From: a virus
Direction: 5' to 3' (one strand)
Virus record (IMG/VR): IMGVR_UViG_3300035212_000537
Span: 1 to 34,891 of that record
DNA length: 34,891 bases
Under the pieces are notes generated by a model. It had not been told where the DNA came from, ran no database searches, and was given only the letters and a program-made list of their open reading frames with translations. Each line of letters starts with the position of its first letter. The stretch's first letter is position 1. Both the position numbers and the translations under genes were made by a program. This document shows positions 4,675 through 30,484 of the stretch, piece by piece.

Positions 4675-5157
4675 ATGAATTTAATTGAAATAGCAAAGTA
4701 TCACGACGAATGGGTGCGAATAGTTAAACGTTTTGGAGCTAAAACCGAAGCAGAAGACATCGTTCAAGATATGTACATACGGTTCCATAAATACGGCAAA
4801 GGTCAAGTAGTAACCAAGTCGTTCATTTGGATAATGCTTCGTAATATCTTTTTTGACTATTGCAAACGTGAAATATCAATGGTCGATATTGACCTCATGG
4901 TAGACCTATCAGAAGATGAAAACAACAAAACATACGAAATAGAGTTATACTATCAGAGCGTTGAAAATGAAATAAAGAAATGGGAGTGGTTTGACCAACA
5001 ACTATTTTTATTATATTTGCGAAGCGGAAAAAGTATGCGTGAACTTGAAAAGGAAACTAAAATTAGTTTGACCTCGATTTTTCACACAATTAAAAAATGT
5101 AAACGAAAATTAAAGATATGGCAAAAAGAGTATCAAAAGGCTTTGGAGATACAGTAG
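4675..5157 (+). CDS. ECF-like RNA polymerase sigma factor
   Basis: The 160-residue protein has the two-domain layout of small sigma-70 proteins. Residues 10-62 resemble region 2: WVRIVKRFG, AEDIVQDMYIRFHKYGKG and WIMLRNIFFDYCKRE. Residues 105-150 resemble region 4, with the helix-turn-helix SGKSMRELEKETKISLTSIF followed by a basic tail. It probably binds host RNA polymerase core and directs it to phage promoters. Lying directly before terminase, it is a candidate late-gene activator. The start ATG is 17 bases after the terminator T-run. A weak TTG-N18-TATCTTTA match (4641-4669) would give a nearly leaderless transcript. Confidence 0.75.
   Translation: MNLIEIAKYHDEWVRIVKRFGAKTEAEDIVQDMYIRFHKYGKGQVVTKSFIWIMLRNIFFDYCKREISMVDIDLMVDLSEDENNKTYEIELYYQSVENEIKKWEWFDQQLFLLYLRSGKSMRELEKETKISLTSIFHTIKKCKRKLKIWQKEYQKALEIQ
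4991..5019 (+). promoter_or_regulatory. Candidate internal promoter (TTG-N18-TATATTTG)
   Basis: A full Bacteroidota -33/-7 match lies inside the sigma gene, about 100 bases upstream of the next start. It could feed the terminase and structural operon independently of the sigma gene's own transcript. In AT-rich coding DNA such matches also arise by chance. Confidence 0.35.
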
Positions 5158-24339: not shown

Positions 24340-24913
24340 GAATTACACAGATAAACAGATACTTGATAGAGTAAAAAGTTTAAAATCATTTAAATCAATT
24401 CCTGTTGGTTATTGGATAGTTGGTGTAAGGTCAAACGAGGACGCACCAAACAAGTACGATGATAAGTTTTACTTATTCAATGGTGATCAATTTGTGAAAG
24501 TTGTTACAGGAACTACTAACCCTGGTACACCAATATTACAAGGAGGCTATCTTAAGTACAACAAGGTAGGTGCAGCAGTTGTTAAATCAAACGAATGGTA
24601 TTACGATGTTTGGAAGTTTGGATTGCATCAAGGTAAGATGCCCGCATTACGTCAAGTTGGTAACTTCATCGTATACCGTGACGGTGATAAAGATGGTAAA
24701 AGTGAAGAAATAGGATTGCCAATCGTTGGAAGTGGTTACGGAATCAACTTTCATACGATTTCAAATGATTTATCAGTTAGAATTGTTGGCGAGAATATTG
24801 GTAACTATTCAGCAGGTTGTCAAGTATGCAATAATGTAGAGCAGTATAGAATGATAATTAACATGGTTAAAAATCAAAATCGTGTTACATATTGTTTATT
24901 GGAGGAATTTTAG
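24326..24913 (+). CDS. Endolysin candidate with L,D-transpeptidase-like motif
   Basis: In this 195-residue protein residues 27-105 form a conserved beta-rich region (GYWIVGVRSNEDAPNKYDD). YRDGDKDGKSEE near residue 117 looks like a Ca2+-binding loop. The C-terminal YGINFHTIS…YSAGCQV carries His143 and Cys165 in the spacing and context of YkuD-type L,D-transpeptidase or carboxypeptidase sites. It follows the holin, so it probably attacks peptidoglycan cross-links or peptides. It has no signal peptide, which fits holin-dependent release. Its last codons are duplicated by the GIY-YIG gene behind it. Confidence 0.6.
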   Translation: MSNVKNYTDKQILDRVKSLKSFKSIPVGYWIVGVRSNEDAPNKYDDKFYLFNGDQFVKVVTGTTNPGTPILQGGYLKYNKVGAAVVKSNEWYYDVWKFGLHQGKMPALRQVGNFIVYRDGDKDGKSEEIGLPIVGSGYGINFHTISNDLSVRIVGENIGNYSAGCQVCNNVEQYRMIINMVKNQNRVTYCLLEEF

Positions 24914-24921
24914 TATCTTTA
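24895..24921 (+). repeat. 27-bp near-repeat, endolysin end copy
   Basis: This region covers the LLEEF-stop codons and eight following bases. It matches 25499-25525 at 24 of 27 positions, in the same reading phase. See the GIY-YIG gene. Confidence 0.85.
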
Positions 24922-24932
24922 TAAAAAAAAAG

Positions 24933-25517
24933 ATGAACAATATTTACTACATATACTTCCATATTAATCCATTAACCAATAAGGTTTTTTACGTTGGTAA
25001 AGGAAAATTAAAAAGAGCTTTTGACAGAAGAAAAAGAAGTGATTATTGGAATAATGTAGTTAATAAATACGGATATATAGTAGATATTGTTCACTCTAAT
25101 TTAAGTGAGGAAAAAGCATTTGAATTAGAAATAATGTATATCAAAAGATTTGGAATTAAAAATTTAGTAAATTCAACTATTGGAGGAAGTGGTGGAGATA
25201 CAATAAGTTTAAATCCAAATAGAGATATTATAGTTGAAAAACAAAAAAAGTATGCTAATGATAATAGAGAATTATTATCTAAAAGAGCAAAAGATGCGTG
25301 GACTCCCGAGTTTAGAAAAAATCAAATAGAAAAACAAAGTAAAAATCCTTTAATGGCTATTGATTTAGAAACAGGATTTCCAATCTTTGCTATTAATTCA
25401 AAAGATTTATCTGAACAATTAAAAGTTAAGCATTCTACATTAAGAACTGCTAAATGCTACAACTATAATTTAAAGCATAGATACATAATAAAAGAGGATT
25501 TATTAGAAGAATTTTAG
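24933..25517 (+). CDS. GIY-YIG homing endonuclease
   Basis: In this 194-residue protein, residues 1-75 carry the GIY-YIG nuclease core: YYIYFHINP…VFYVGKGKLKRA, followed by EKAFELEIMYIKRFG with the catalytic Glu. The C-terminal part (AIDLETGFPIFAINSKDLSE) looks like a NUMOD-type DNA-binding helix repeat. The start is the ATG at 24933; an upstream in-frame start at 24882 lies inside the endolysin and adds no nuclease sequence. The gene is AT-rich and has its own terminator. Its last codons copy those of the endolysin, a sign of recent insertion. Confidence 0.88.
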   Translation: MNNIYYIYFHINPLTNKVFYVGKGKLKRAFDRRKRSDYWNNVVNKYGYIVDIVHSNLSEEKAFELEIMYIKRFGIKNLVNSTIGGSGGDTISLNPNRDIIVEKQKKYANDNRELLSKRAKDAWTPEFRKNQIEKQSKNPLMAIDLETGFPIFAINSKDLSEQLKVKHSTLRTAKCYNYNLKHRYIIKEDLLEEF

Positions 25518-27079: not shown

Positions 27080-27106
27080 GTATGCACTACAATTGGTAAC
27101 CAACTA

Positions 27107-27132
27107 AACCGACCTAACAAGTCGGTTTTTTT
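27107..27132 (+). terminator. Rho-independent terminator
   Basis: AACCGAC pairs with GTCGGTT around CTAACAA and is followed by a T run. It closes the operon begun at 25634. The palindrome TTGGTAACCAA just upstream could be a small operator. Confidence 0.9.
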
Positions 27133-27203
27133 ATTGAAATGTACTTTTTAAAATCAATCTGTACTTACTTAAATAACTATAAAACAATATGTTAATGCAA
27201 AAT

Positions 27204-27407
27204 AGTACGAGTACGAATTGAAATTCCCTATGCTGTATATATTACGGTACTATTATATATTTATTCATATAAAAAATATATTTATTCTTACCGCTTTTTT
27301 AAAAAAAAACAGCTAAAAAATGTGTTCGATTCGTACTATTGAGTATAATAGATTGATAAATAGACTTTTACACGCAACAGATTACGCAACAGATACAGTA
27401 CGAATCG
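27204..27407. other. Candidate replication origin with iterons
   Basis: This non-coding stretch holds copies of AGTACGAAT-type sites: AGTACG plus AGTACGAAT in tandem (27204-27218), CGATTCGTACT (27327-27337, reverse) and AGTACGAATCG (27397-27407). The last two are perfect 11-bp inverted copies. Between them lie very AT-rich DNA (about 27253-27320) and the tandem 12-mer ACGCAACAGATT/A. Iterons, AT-rich DNA and a primase-helicase gene downstream together suggest the phage origin. An operator array is the main alternative. Confidence 0.5.
27372..27395. repeat. Tandem 12-bp repeat
   Basis: ACGCAACAGATT at 27372-27383 is followed directly by ACGCAACAGATA at 27384-27395, differing in the last base. 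It lies next to an AGTACGAATCG site inside the candidate origin. Confidence 0.9.
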
Positions 27408-27485
27408 TAAATTATACATCTTATTTAGAATCGTTTTAAATTAGTGTTGTTTTTTATTTAAGTGTATTTAATTAAAATAATTGTT

Positions 27486-27493
27486 TATATTTG
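27486..27493 (+). promoter_or_regulatory. Candidate promoter -7 box TATATTTG
   Basis: The -7 box is perfect, but no exact TTG lies 17-21 bases upstream, so it may be activator-dependent or weak. Transcription would start close to 27500, right at the switch-like leader RNA before the HNH and primase genes. Confidence 0.5.
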
Positions 27494-27502
27494 CATATCG
27501 AA

Positions 27503-27591
27503 GCATAGGAAACTCCGAAAAATATTTATTACAATTAAATTAAAAGCTATCTGATAAAGGTTTTCCTATGCACCTTTTGACGATGGCTTTT
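27503..27591 (+). promoter_or_regulatory. Switch-like leader RNA with loop-upstream pairing
   Basis: Three pairings can be drawn: AAAAGCTATC (27542-27551) with GATGGCTTTT (27582-27591), AAAGG (27556-27560) with CCTTT (27573-27577), and GCATAGGAAA (27503-27512) with TTTCCTATGC (27562-27571). The third uses nearly the whole 12-base loop of the hairpin. It therefore forms a pseudoknot or competes with the small stem. This lies between a -7 box and the HNH ATG. It may regulate the replication operon; no known riboswitch class was recognised. Confidence 0.5.
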
Positions 27592-27608
27592 TGATTTAAA
27601 AAAAAAAT

Positions 27609-28091
27609 ATGAACATTCAAGAAATTTGGAAGGACATCCCGGGATACGAAGGATTGTATCAAGTTAGTAATTTTGGTAGAGTAAAATCGTTTAAGAATAA
27701 AACAGAAAAGATTTTAAAACTAAGTATTTGTTCTCATGGTTATTATGTTATTACAATTAGGACTTACAAAAAAATAAGAGTCCATCAATTGGTAGCTATG
27801 GCTTTTTTAAACCATAAACCAAATGGATATAAAAAAGTAATTGACCATATTAATTCTGATAAATTAGATAACAGAGTTGAAAACTTACAAGTTGTTTCTC
27901 AAAGGTTTAATACTAGTAAAAGACAAGGTGTTTTTACAAGCAAGTACACAGGTGTTAGTTGGTTAAAAGACAGAAATAAATGGAGGGTTCAAATAAATAT
28001 AAATGGTAAAACAACATATTTAGGAGCATTCAACTGCGAATTAGCGGCAGCATTAGCATATCAAAACAAATTAAAACAAATAACATGTTAG
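27609..28091 (+). CDS. HNH homing endonuclease with NUMOD4 and AP2-like parts
   Basis: In this 160-residue protein, residues 1-45 (EIWKDIPGYEGLYQVSNFGR) match the NUMOD4 DNA-binding motif. Residues 57-105 are the HNH nuclease (VHQLVAMAFLNH, KVIDHINSDKLDNRVENLQV). Residues 107-155 (YTGVSWLKDRNKWRVQI, TYLGAFNCELAAALAY) look like an AP2-type DNA-binding domain. It probably cuts and spreads itself into a related site near the replication genes. Its stop overlaps the primase start by 7 bases, so insertion kept the operon intact. Confidence 0.9.
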   Translation: MNIQEIWKDIPGYEGLYQVSNFGRVKSFKNKTEKILKLSICSHGYYVITIRTYKKIRVHQLVAMAFLNHKPNGYKKVIDHINSDKLDNRVENLQVVSQRFNTSKRQGVFTSKYTGVSWLKDRNKWRVQININGKTTYLGAFNCELAAALAYQNKLKQITC

Positions 28092-30484
28092 TAGACTTAT
28101 ATAAAGATGCCTATCAGAACACACCGATAGGAAGACCAAAAAACGTTTTGTTTTATTTAGATCGCATTAGAAATGGGGATAGCAAAAAAACAATTGAATT
28201 AGTAAGGTCAGAATTAGATTCAAAAAAGAAATCTAAAATCAAATTACAACTGCCTGCTGTTACATTTGCTGGTACATTTACCACAAGGTCGAAGGATAAT
28301 TTAAAAAAGTCAAGTGGTTTATGTATATTGGATTTTGACAAACTTAAAAGCTATGATTTAGTTTTAGAATTAAAAGAAAAACTTAAAATTGATAATTATG
28401 TTTATTCAACATGGATAAGTCCTTCGGGAGATGGTTTAAAGGCTTTGGTTAAAATACCTTGTATAGAATCCAATGACGAATATAACAAATACTATAAATC
28501 AATTGTAAAGCATTTTGAATGGGTAAATGATAACTACGGCAGTGACACGATAGATACATCAGGACAGGACATTTCAAGACTATGTTTTGAATCATACGAC
28601 CCAACAATTTACATTAATTTAGAATCTGATTTATATGTTGACTTTGAAAGAACTGAACTTGTTGAAATAAACAGTACTTTAGGAGTAGTTACAAATATTC
28701 CTTTAACAGACCAAGACCAAATAGCTAACAGGTTAATGGTATGGTTTAAGAAGTCTTATAACGGTGTAAATCGTAACAATTCCTTCCATAAATTAGCACT
28801 TGCATTTAATGATTTTGGAGTTGAAAGATTTATTGCAGAAAGGTATATCTTAGCGAATGAGCAAAAGGATTTTGATAGTAAAGAAATATTAGCATTAATA
28901 AACTCAGCTTATAAGCATACCGCTAACTTTGGGACAAAACAGTTTGAAGATAAGGTTAAATTGAAGACCATTTCAAATATGATTTTAGTTGGTAAGACAA
29001 ACGACTATATTAAAAAATCATTTCCTGACTTAAGCGATGAGAAATTAGATGCTGAGATAAATGCACAAAAAAGTAAAATTGACGTTAACAAATTTTGGAG
29101 TCATAATGAGGAGGGGAAGTTAGTAGTGTCACACCACAAGTTTAAATTCTATTTAGAAAACAAAAACTTTTTTAAGCACTTTCCAATTGATAAATCAAAG
29201 ACTTTTACTTTCATAACTAAGGAAGGTAATTTTGTTGACGAAGTAACAGAATTTCAAATTAAGGATCATGTACTAAACGAGTTGTTAAGTAGTGATAGTT
29301 TAGAGCCTTTTGATTTAGTGGCAGGTAGTACAAAGTCATTTACACCGCAATACTTATCAATGTTAGAAACCGCAAAATTTAACATTGAAGAAGATGCTTC
29401 TGACTTTGCAATTTTATACTATCGTAATTGTGTAATCAAAGTATTTAAAGATGGTTACCAAAAATTAAACTATGAAGACTTAAAAGGTTTTGTTTGGAAA
29501 AAACAAGTAATTGACCGTGACTTTATAGATGCAGACCACCACGATTCAGAGTTTAGGAGATTTCTTTGGTTAGCTTCATCACAAAACAAAAATAAATACG
29601 AAAGTTTAAAATCTGTCATTGGTTACTTGATGCACTCATACAAAACAAGTGCAAACAATAAAGCGATAATATTTAACGATGAAACAATTTCTGATAATCC
29701 TAACGGTGGATCGGGGAAATCTTTATTTTGGAATGCGTTGGGTAAAATGAAAAAAGTATCCGCAATAGATGGTAAAACGTTTGAATTTACTAAATCATTT
29801 CCTTATCAGTCTGTTCCTGTTGATACACAACTTTTAGTATTTGATGACGTTAAAAAGAACTTTCAATTTGAATCTTTATTCTCATTAATTACGGAAGGTA
29901 TTACTTTAGAATACAAAGGGCAGGACGCAATAAAATTGCCTGTTACTAAATCTCCTAAAATAGTTATTACAACAAATTATACTATCGGTGGTGTTGGTGG
30001 TTCTTTTGAACGCAGAAAGTTTGAAGTTGAAATGAGTAGTTATTTTAACGCAAATCATACACCTTTAGACGAGTTTGGTCATATGTTATTCGATGACTGG
30101 GACGAAAATGAGTGGGCAAGGTTTGACCATTTTATGATTAATTGCCAAAAATTTTATCTTGAAAAGGGATTAGTACCATTTGACTTTACAAATTTAGAGC
30201 ATAGAAAATTAATCAACGAAACGTCTTCTGAGTTTTTAGAGTGGATTGGAGATGGGAACGTACAAGAAGATAGTAGACTAATTAAAAGTGTTTGCTTTGA
30301 AAACTTCTTACAGGAACATAAAGATTTTAGAAGTTGGTTAAAGTCTAAACGTTTTACAATTTGGATTCAGAAGTATTGCGTTTATTATGGTAAGACATAC
30401 ACGGAAGGAAATTCAAATGGTCAAAGATGGTTTGAAATTACAAGTAATAACGAATTTAAAAAAGTAGAAGAATGCCCATTCTAA
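28085..30484 (+). CDS. Primase-helicase with BT4734/VirE_N domain and SF3 helicase
   Basis: In this 799-residue protein, the N-terminal BT4734/VirE_N-like part (about residues 10-190) has FAGTFTTRSKDNLKKSSGLC, LDFDKL and STWISPSGDGLKALVKI, followed by DTSGQDISRLCFESYD. A linker is followed by an SF3-type helicase with Walker A NGGSGKS (near residue 540) and Walker B LLVFDDV (near 583). The sensor-like KIVITTNYTIGG and arginine-containing GSFERRKFEVEMS follow. It should unwind and prime phage DNA, probably at the iteron region upstream. Confidence 0.88.
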   Translation: MLVDLYKDAYQNTPIGRPKNVLFYLDRIRNGDSKKTIELVRSELDSKKKSKIKLQLPAVTFAGTFTTRSKDNLKKSSGLCILDFDKLKSYDLVLELKEKLKIDNYVYSTWISPSGDGLKALVKIPCIESNDEYNKYYKSIVKHFEWVNDNYGSDTIDTSGQDISRLCFESYDPTIYINLESDLYVDFERTELVEINSTLGVVTNIPLTDQDQIANRLMVWFKKSYNGVNRNNSFHKLALAFNDFGVERFIAERYILANEQKDFDSKEILALINSAYKHTANFGTKQFEDKVKLKTISNMILVGKTNDYIKKSFPDLSDEKLDAEINAQKSKIDVNKFWSHNEEGKLVVSHHKFKFYLENKNFFKHFPIDKSKTFTFITKEGNFVDEVTEFQIKDHVLNELLSSDSLEPFDLVAGSTKSFTPQYLSMLETAKFNIEEDASDFAILYYRNCVIKVFKDGYQKLNYEDLKGFVWKKQVIDRDFIDADHHDSEFRRFLWLASSQNKNKYESLKSVIGYLMHSYKTSANNKAIIFNDETISDNPNGGSGKSLFWNALGKMKKVSAIDGKTFEFTKSFPYQSVPVDTQLLVFDDVKKNFQFESLFSLITEGITLEYKGQDAIKLPVTKSPKIVITTNYTIGGVGGSFERRKFEVEMSSYFNANHTPLDEFGHMLFDDWDENEWARFDHFMINCQKFYLEKGLVPFDFTNLEHRKLINETSSEFLEWIGDGNVQEDSRLIKSVCFENFLQEHKDFRSWLKSKRFTIWIQKYCVYYGKTYTEGNSNGQRWFEITSNNEFKKVEECPF

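Follow-up and report, generated by a model that had tools for sequence, protein, structure and literature searches.

The window analysed here is an entire virus record of 34,891 bases. A structured leader at 27486-27608 precedes two genes on its + strand (Table 1): a homing-type endonuclease gene with NUMOD4, HNH_3 and AP2 domains, and the gene for a replication protein that resembles phage primase/helicase. An AT-rich, repeat-rich stretch (27130-27480) separates the leader from a terminator at 27106-27128. This stretch contains short repeats such as AGTACGAATCG, relatives carry AGTACACATT-type repeats at the same place, and it is a candidate replication origin or set of regulator sites. Elsewhere in the window, a small protein at 4675-5157 has a weak Sigma70_r2 match (22.3 bits, under the Pfam cut-off) and is possibly a phage sigma-like factor, and an open reading frame in the late region (24882-25517) with a weak GIY-YIG match is perhaps another homing-type endonuclease.

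Table 1. Features of the leader and of the genes behind it, in window coordinates
Feature	Position	Strand	Remarks and basis
Promoter -7 element, TATATTTG	27486..27493	+	Bacteroidota sigma-A type TAnnTTTG; predicted +1 at 27498
P1 hairpin	27498..27518	+	RNA 5' end; loop bears A; sequence, covariation in relatives
A, kissing sequence GCATAGGAAA	27503..27512	+	Within P1 loop; 5'-most G also closes P1
AU-rich linker between P1 and P2	27519..27541	+	Sequence
P2 hairpin	27542..27591	+	P2a, internal loop and P2b; sequence, fold
A', TTTCCTATGC	27562..27571	+	Whole 10-nt apical loop of P2; complementary to A
U-tract TTTTT, terminator-like	27588..27592	+	Foot of P2a; sequence
First gene, NUMOD4-HNH_3-AP2 homing-type endonuclease	27609..28091	+	Start codon 17 nt past P2a
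Second gene, replication protein (BT4734-like_N, DUF5906)	28085..30484	+	

Anatomy of the leader

The leader follows a TAnnTTTG element, and sequence comparison places the same element immediately 5' of the leaders of relatives. In F. psychrophilum this consensus occupies positions -12 to -5, taken here as the rule for Flavobacterium (PMC9723704). Applied to TATATTTG, the rule puts the predicted start of transcription at 27498, so that the first base of the P1 hairpin lies at +1. P1 is a small 5' hairpin around A that the original prediction overlooked. It pairs 27498-27500 with 27516-27518 and 27502-27503 with 27513-27514, with an A.C mismatch at 27501/27515 (TCGaAG/CTcCGA), and in this phage it is weak, at -0.7 kcal/mol.

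P2 is built from two stems. The outer one, P2a, pairs AAAAGCTATC (27542-27551) with GATGGCTTTT (27582-27591) over 10 bp that include one U.G; the inner one, P2b, pairs 27556-27561 with 27572-27577 (AAAGGT/ACCTTT). Between them is a 4x4 internal loop, UGAU/UGAC (27552-27555/27578-27581), consistent with tandem G.A pairs. A and A' are perfect Watson-Crick complements over 10 bp. The end of P2a is 17 nt from the ATG of the HNH gene at 27609. Together with the TTTTT run, P2a has the make-up of an intrinsic terminator, a G/C-bearing stem with a U-tract directly attached. P2 is absent from the output of a standard terminator pattern scan, which accepts loops of up to 8.

Could so short a leader pair in this way by chance? 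The whole of 27486-27608 folds at -22.3 kcal/mol (z -2.9), and only one of 200 dinucleotide shuffles folds equally well; a kiss of equal strength arises in about 1 of 300. These shuffles, the covariation and a test on unselected leaders (both below) rule out chance pairing of A with A'.

Much of the original prediction is thereby borne out. The 10-bp pairing that it proposed between 27503-27512 and 27562-27571 is an exact reverse complement, the latter segment is indeed a hairpin loop, and the second 10-bp stem does run into a run of T. It erred for the most part in having this pairing compete with the hairpin's own stem. Because A' is the apical loop of P2, the contact with A is a kissing-loop (pseudoknot) interaction largely compatible with both hairpins. 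The stems are also conserved together with the kiss, which leaves a stem-replacement switch unsupported.

Covariation and recurrence in relatives

In an alignment of 13 alignable leaders (A1), the kiss is formed in every sequence, with Watson-Crick pairs in 104 of 104 cells. Two-sided changes are seen at seven of its eight pairs and one-sided changes at none. Its covariation is 0.636, compared with 0.244 for shuffled columns and 0.05-0.11 for slid partners. P1 is 100% paired, with two-sided changes at five of five pairs, and RNAalifold recovers P1, P2a and P2b without structure input. All stems taken together contain 17 G.U pairs and a single A.C, which identifies the RNA of the + strand as the molecule that folds. 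The covariation that the original prediction proposed as a check is present in the relatives: paired bases are kept while the sequence changes.

The changes are extensive. Within the source phage's own leader family, GCATAGGAAA/TTTCCTATGC is replaced by GCGTAGGAAA/TTTCCTACGC in L174 and by GCGTGGAAA/TTTCCACGC in L007. The cultured virulent phages mumin and snusmum have GTGGAACG/CGTTCCAC, hattifnatt and filifjonk have GTGAGACG/CGTCTCAC, and morran has GTGAGAAG/CTTCTCAC; the leaders of these phages are nearly identical outside the kiss. Across the class the kissing sequences are hypervariable yet still complementary. We conclude that the leader is a kissing-loop RNA whose two stems and loop-loop helix are kept by compensatory change.

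This architecture recurs in about 65 distinct leaders, found in phage contigs and in the cultured Flavobacterium phages mumin, snusmum, hattifnatt, filifjonk, morran and elemoF. In contigs that encode relatives of the replication protein (28085-30481), TAnnTTTG is followed at the same place by a leader of the same architecture and different sequence. We counted with a descriptor made up of the promoter, P1 with loop A, the linker, P2a, and P2b with loop A', requiring the promoter and a strict layout and using shuffles as the control. Among 2,388 distinct promoter-like sites at 276 loci, 72 scored at least 60, as against 4 in the shuffles, and most of the high-scoring sites had the same orientation as the primase gene. 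Without the promoter requirement, many background matches in AT-rich genomes score 62-75, so that the descriptor can be relied on only when TAnnTTTG and the strict layout are both demanded. As a guard against circularity, 26 leaders were picked by position alone and thinned. The full architecture (score at least 58) was present in 15 of them, with 0.01 expected, and a kiss pairing score of at least 17 was reached by 16, with 2.0 expected.

Segmentation covered 67 element calls, an upper count of the roughly 65 leaders because a few are repeat calls of one leader, as in L064 (twice) and L007 (at 1261). P1 calls are imprecise for some leaders; the source phage was called automatically with an ATAT/ATAT stem, and the P1 in Table 1 comes from hand inspection. 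P1 is mostly 4-5 bp, and in 51 of the 67 its first base falls between -1 and +3. The kiss is mostly 7-8 bp, P2a 7-15 bp and P2b 3-6 bp. The internal loop of P2 is drawn from several modules: TGAA/GGAT or TGAT/TGAC, consistent with tandem G.A; AGTA/GAA, which would resemble a loop-E or bulged-G motif; and TT/TT. A run of at least four T follows P2a in 77% of 81 leaders, compared with 14% of control stretches, and the mean T content of the 9 nt 3' of P2a is 6.4 in these leaders versus 3.5. In L028 and L056 the U-tract lies 3 nt off the stem. The next start codon is 9-27 nt 3' of P2a in nearly all leaders.

A few leaders carry a third copy of the recognition sequence. This A2, a second copy of A of at least 8 nt 3' of the U-tract, is present in 8 of the 67 (about 0.1 expected), namely L002, L006, L231/L247, L250, L255/L266 and L262, which represent at least five sequence types; L068:4708 is a ninth case. 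A2 always sits beside the start codon, ending within a few bases of it. Since A2 is also complementary to A', A' has two alternative partners, A at the 5' end and A2 near the start codon. Most leaders, including the one at 27486-27608, are without A2, and the window holds no further exact copy of A. In L002, L006 and L068:4708, A2 is directly 5' of the ATG of an HNH gene, and leader and gene are seemingly a cassette.

The element was not found in the examined parts of crAss001, PhiCrAssBcn4, Cellulophaga phi46:1 and Polaribacter Leef_1, or in the primase loci of bacterial genomes (L105-L112). An exact search for GCATAGGAAACTCCG in viral contigs returned 23 scattered matches, none of which belongs to the element. 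One of them, in L101 (4828-5076), is a tandem array that includes seven exact copies of GCATAGGAAACTCCG and is apparently unrelated to the leader. A different, distant class of leader stands directly 5' of primase in L015-L017, L026, L049-L055, L065, L067, L069-L077 and L081, with the type GGGGTTGTCGG...CCTTTCCCC-T8-...AACGAGT. Its U-tract is placed differently, inside the outer pairing, and this class (L015-L017, L026, L049 and others) does not fit the descriptor; the fold seems to be an H-type pseudoknot, perhaps another means to the same end.

What do the leaders precede? In relatives, the leader is often immediately upstream of the second gene. Across the class, the genes that follow are primases, NUMOD4-HNH and GIY-YIG endonucleases, methylases and small proteins. 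Relatives of the leader at 27486-27608 stand 5' of the primase directly (L007) and 5' of an unrelated 159-residue protein (L174). The leader is therefore not tied to a single gene. A restriction to HNH genes is ruled out by the variety of genes that follow, and the element is not specific to the HNH and primase operon whose control had been proposed.

L005 and L007 are 94% identical at the primase start and 90% in the promoter, whereas their leaders are 69% identical; L004, L005 and L010 have leaders that are 100% identical and primases that are 87-93% identical. Within the source phage's group, where primase starts are 82-94% identical, leaders are either near-identical or only about 60-70% alike, so leaders are swapped as cassettes. 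This turnover resembles specificity types of plasmid or immunity RNAs; plain recombination can also produce it. A single genome may have several leaders, and their kisses differ: L030, L066 and snusmum9-1 have three and mumin6-4 has two.

Comparison with known RNA control systems

No family in Rfam 15 (4227 families, among them riboswitches, c4 antisense, IsrK, group I introns and Bacteroidota motifs) matched the window at gathering score. Permissive thresholds gave only chance matches in the source record, and the leaders of 15 relatives gave no match, in keeping with the original view that the RNA belongs to no recognised class. We found no account of the kissing leader in open-access papers, and structured leader RNAs of Bacteroidota phages seem to be little described. 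A match to the DUF805b RNA (38.8 bits, above gathering) lies in a phage contig, L030 (2293-2325), away from the kissing leader.

Phage P4 offers one parallel. Its CI RNA, like the c4 antisense RNA of P1 and P7 (RF01695 in PMC2864571), uses complementary boxes to control termination ahead of replication genes (PMC4825925). Like the P4 system, with its seqA and seqC (PMC4825925), the kissing leader is a leader RNA with short complementary boxes ahead of replication genes, where termination control is predicted; where A2 is present, the arrangement A-A'-A2 recalls seqA - CI RNA - seqC. The differences are as clear. P4 and c4 RNAs belong to lysogenic control, whereas the kissing leaders have no lysogenic setting and no known separate processed regulator; they carry two kissing loops in one leader, occur several to a genome and match no Rfam family. 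The element-bearing muminviruses are lytic isolates (PMC7077304). The 34,891-bp record, which may be incomplete, gave no Phage_integrase match, and the temperate or phage-plasmid setting of P4/P1-type immunity RNAs was not found.

Plasmids control their replication by antisense and attenuation mechanisms, as in the kissing of ColE1 RNAI with RNAII and the attenuation of pT181 repC. The phage leaders share with these systems kissing loops that vary yet stay complementary and a terminator, here putative, just 5' of a replication gene. They differ in that the kiss forms within one RNA, no counter-transcript is seen, and genes other than replication genes are also preceded. T-even phages have a pseudoknot in the gene 32 leader and hairpins before the homing endonuclease genes mobE and I-TevI (PMC3014915). 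There a fold in a phage 5' leader controls a replication or endonuclease gene near its start codon, as is predicted for the kissing leaders; the two are parallels in function. The T-even structures are operators of single genes for Shine-Dalgarno start sites, whereas the kissing leaders are one architecture of changing sequence before many genes, in hosts that do not use Shine-Dalgarno sequences. Finally, the leader resembles an intrinsic terminator in having a stable stem and U-tract between promoter and first start codon. Unlike the usual attenuator, its terminator loop kisses the 5' hairpin of the RNA, and it has no leader peptide, tRNA or known ligand site.

Models of leader function

We tentatively favour, at somewhat short of even confidence, a model in which the element is a cis-acting leader of virulent-type Bacteroidota phages that acts as an attenuator-type switch and is ON when the kiss forms. 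An attenuator is the most likely form of control because P2 and its U-tract are terminator-like and lie 17 nt 5' of the start codon. In the steps that follow, termination, the direction of the switch and a kiss-breaking factor are all postulated. As RNA emerges from 27498, P1 would fold first, and A' would pair with A on leaving the polymerase. The kiss would slow or block closure of P2a at the U-tract, so that transcription reads through, and would hold A' off the start site. Were there no kiss, P2 would terminate transcription and, in leaders with A2, A' would cover the start site. The kiss might be broken by a matching leader RNA in trans, by removal of P1 or by a protein. In Flavobacterium, which has no Shine-Dalgarno sequences, structure in the start region lowers or tunes initiation (PMC6847099), so that a gate made of RNA structure close to the start codon is plausible. 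Our reason for choosing the kiss as ON is that A' would be engaged before P2a closes and, in leaders with A2, would be held off the start codon; the kiss could equally favour termination. Its effect on termination is kinetic or steric speculation, since a loop-loop kiss does not exclude P2a by pairing.

A start of P1 at +1 would suit a shield for the 5' end as well, and protection of this kind may operate alongside attenuation. Taken as the whole function, it is possible but unlikely: P1 would close over +1, the kiss would lock it against pyrophosphohydrolase and 5'-sensing RNases, and P2 would be a spacer or roadblock. The sequence would be free to drift because only structure matters, as is seen in a class that conserves structure and not sequence, stands before many unrelated genes, and begins P1 at -1 to +3 in most leaders by the published start-site rule (PMC9723704). 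But armour of this kind does not explain the enrichment of the U-tract, the A2 copies at start codons or the need for a partner hairpin just 5' of the start codon.

A leader, or its terminated short form, might instead act in trans, pairing through A or A' with leaders transcribed from other copies of the same phage, with feedback on copy number or exclusion of close relatives as the result. The analogues would be the P4/P1 immunity RNAs and ColE1-type plasmid control, with A/A' pairs as specificity types. We give this rather low probability. The leaders do behave like swapped alleles (L005 and L007 set against L004, L005 and L010), each leader within a genome has its own A/A' pair, and the pairing is strictly Watson-Crick. 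However, the 34,891-bp record shows neither a separate antisense gene nor another exact copy of A; with no integrase found there and muminviruses known as lytic isolates (PMC7077304), lysogenic immunity is not needed; and simple recombination could also swap alleles. As a slightly longer shot still, the hypervariable, self-matching leaders may be RNA identity tags for each operon or phage type that act in trans without a repressor protein.

Control of translation alone, with P2 and A' gating the start codon and no role in termination, we rate about as improbable as regulation in trans. P2a ends 9-27 nt 5' of the start codon, A2 lies at the start, many downstream genes encode NUMOD4-HNH or GIY-YIG endonucleases, and comparable hairpins repress endonuclease genes of the T4 type (PMC3014915). 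Yet the AU-rich start region is unpaired in most leaders and the U-tract is strongly enriched. P2a here stops 17 nt short of the ATG, and structure reaches the start site only through A2, in a minority of leaders.

The original prediction also entertained a riboswitch. Its attenuator-like half agrees with the anatomy, the covariation, the U-tract and the site before start codons; binding of a metabolite or protein is very unlikely. A compact tertiary fold in a 5' leader and recurring motifs in the P2 internal loop would suit a ligand. By inspection, however, no unpaired stretch is strictly conserved across the segmented leaders, and the internal loop is exchanged among tandem G.A-like, AGTA/GAA and U.U types, both of which disfavour a ligand riboswitch; the unrelated downstream genes and the absence of an Rfam match also count against it. 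A DNA-level element, such as an origin hairpin or a recombination or insertion site, is the most improbable of all: the leader adjoins a repeat-rich possible origin and swaps with the first gene as a cassette, but the stems favour G.U over A.C by 17 to 1, the place at promoter +1 is constant, the U-tract has polarity, and several copies serve different operons.

The kissing leader is a compact, portable, putative control element with exceptionally clear compensatory evolution, and its hypervariable sequence hides it from ordinary similarity searches. If the leaders are identity tags, they would set copy-number feedback or exclude close relatives. The element is present in virulent phages that can be cultured and whose hosts, Flavobacterium sp. 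LMO6 and LMO9, are known, so that its function is open to direct test. The way in which two loops of one RNA change together, with a third copy at some start codons, offers a route to studying how an RNA recognition code diversifies.
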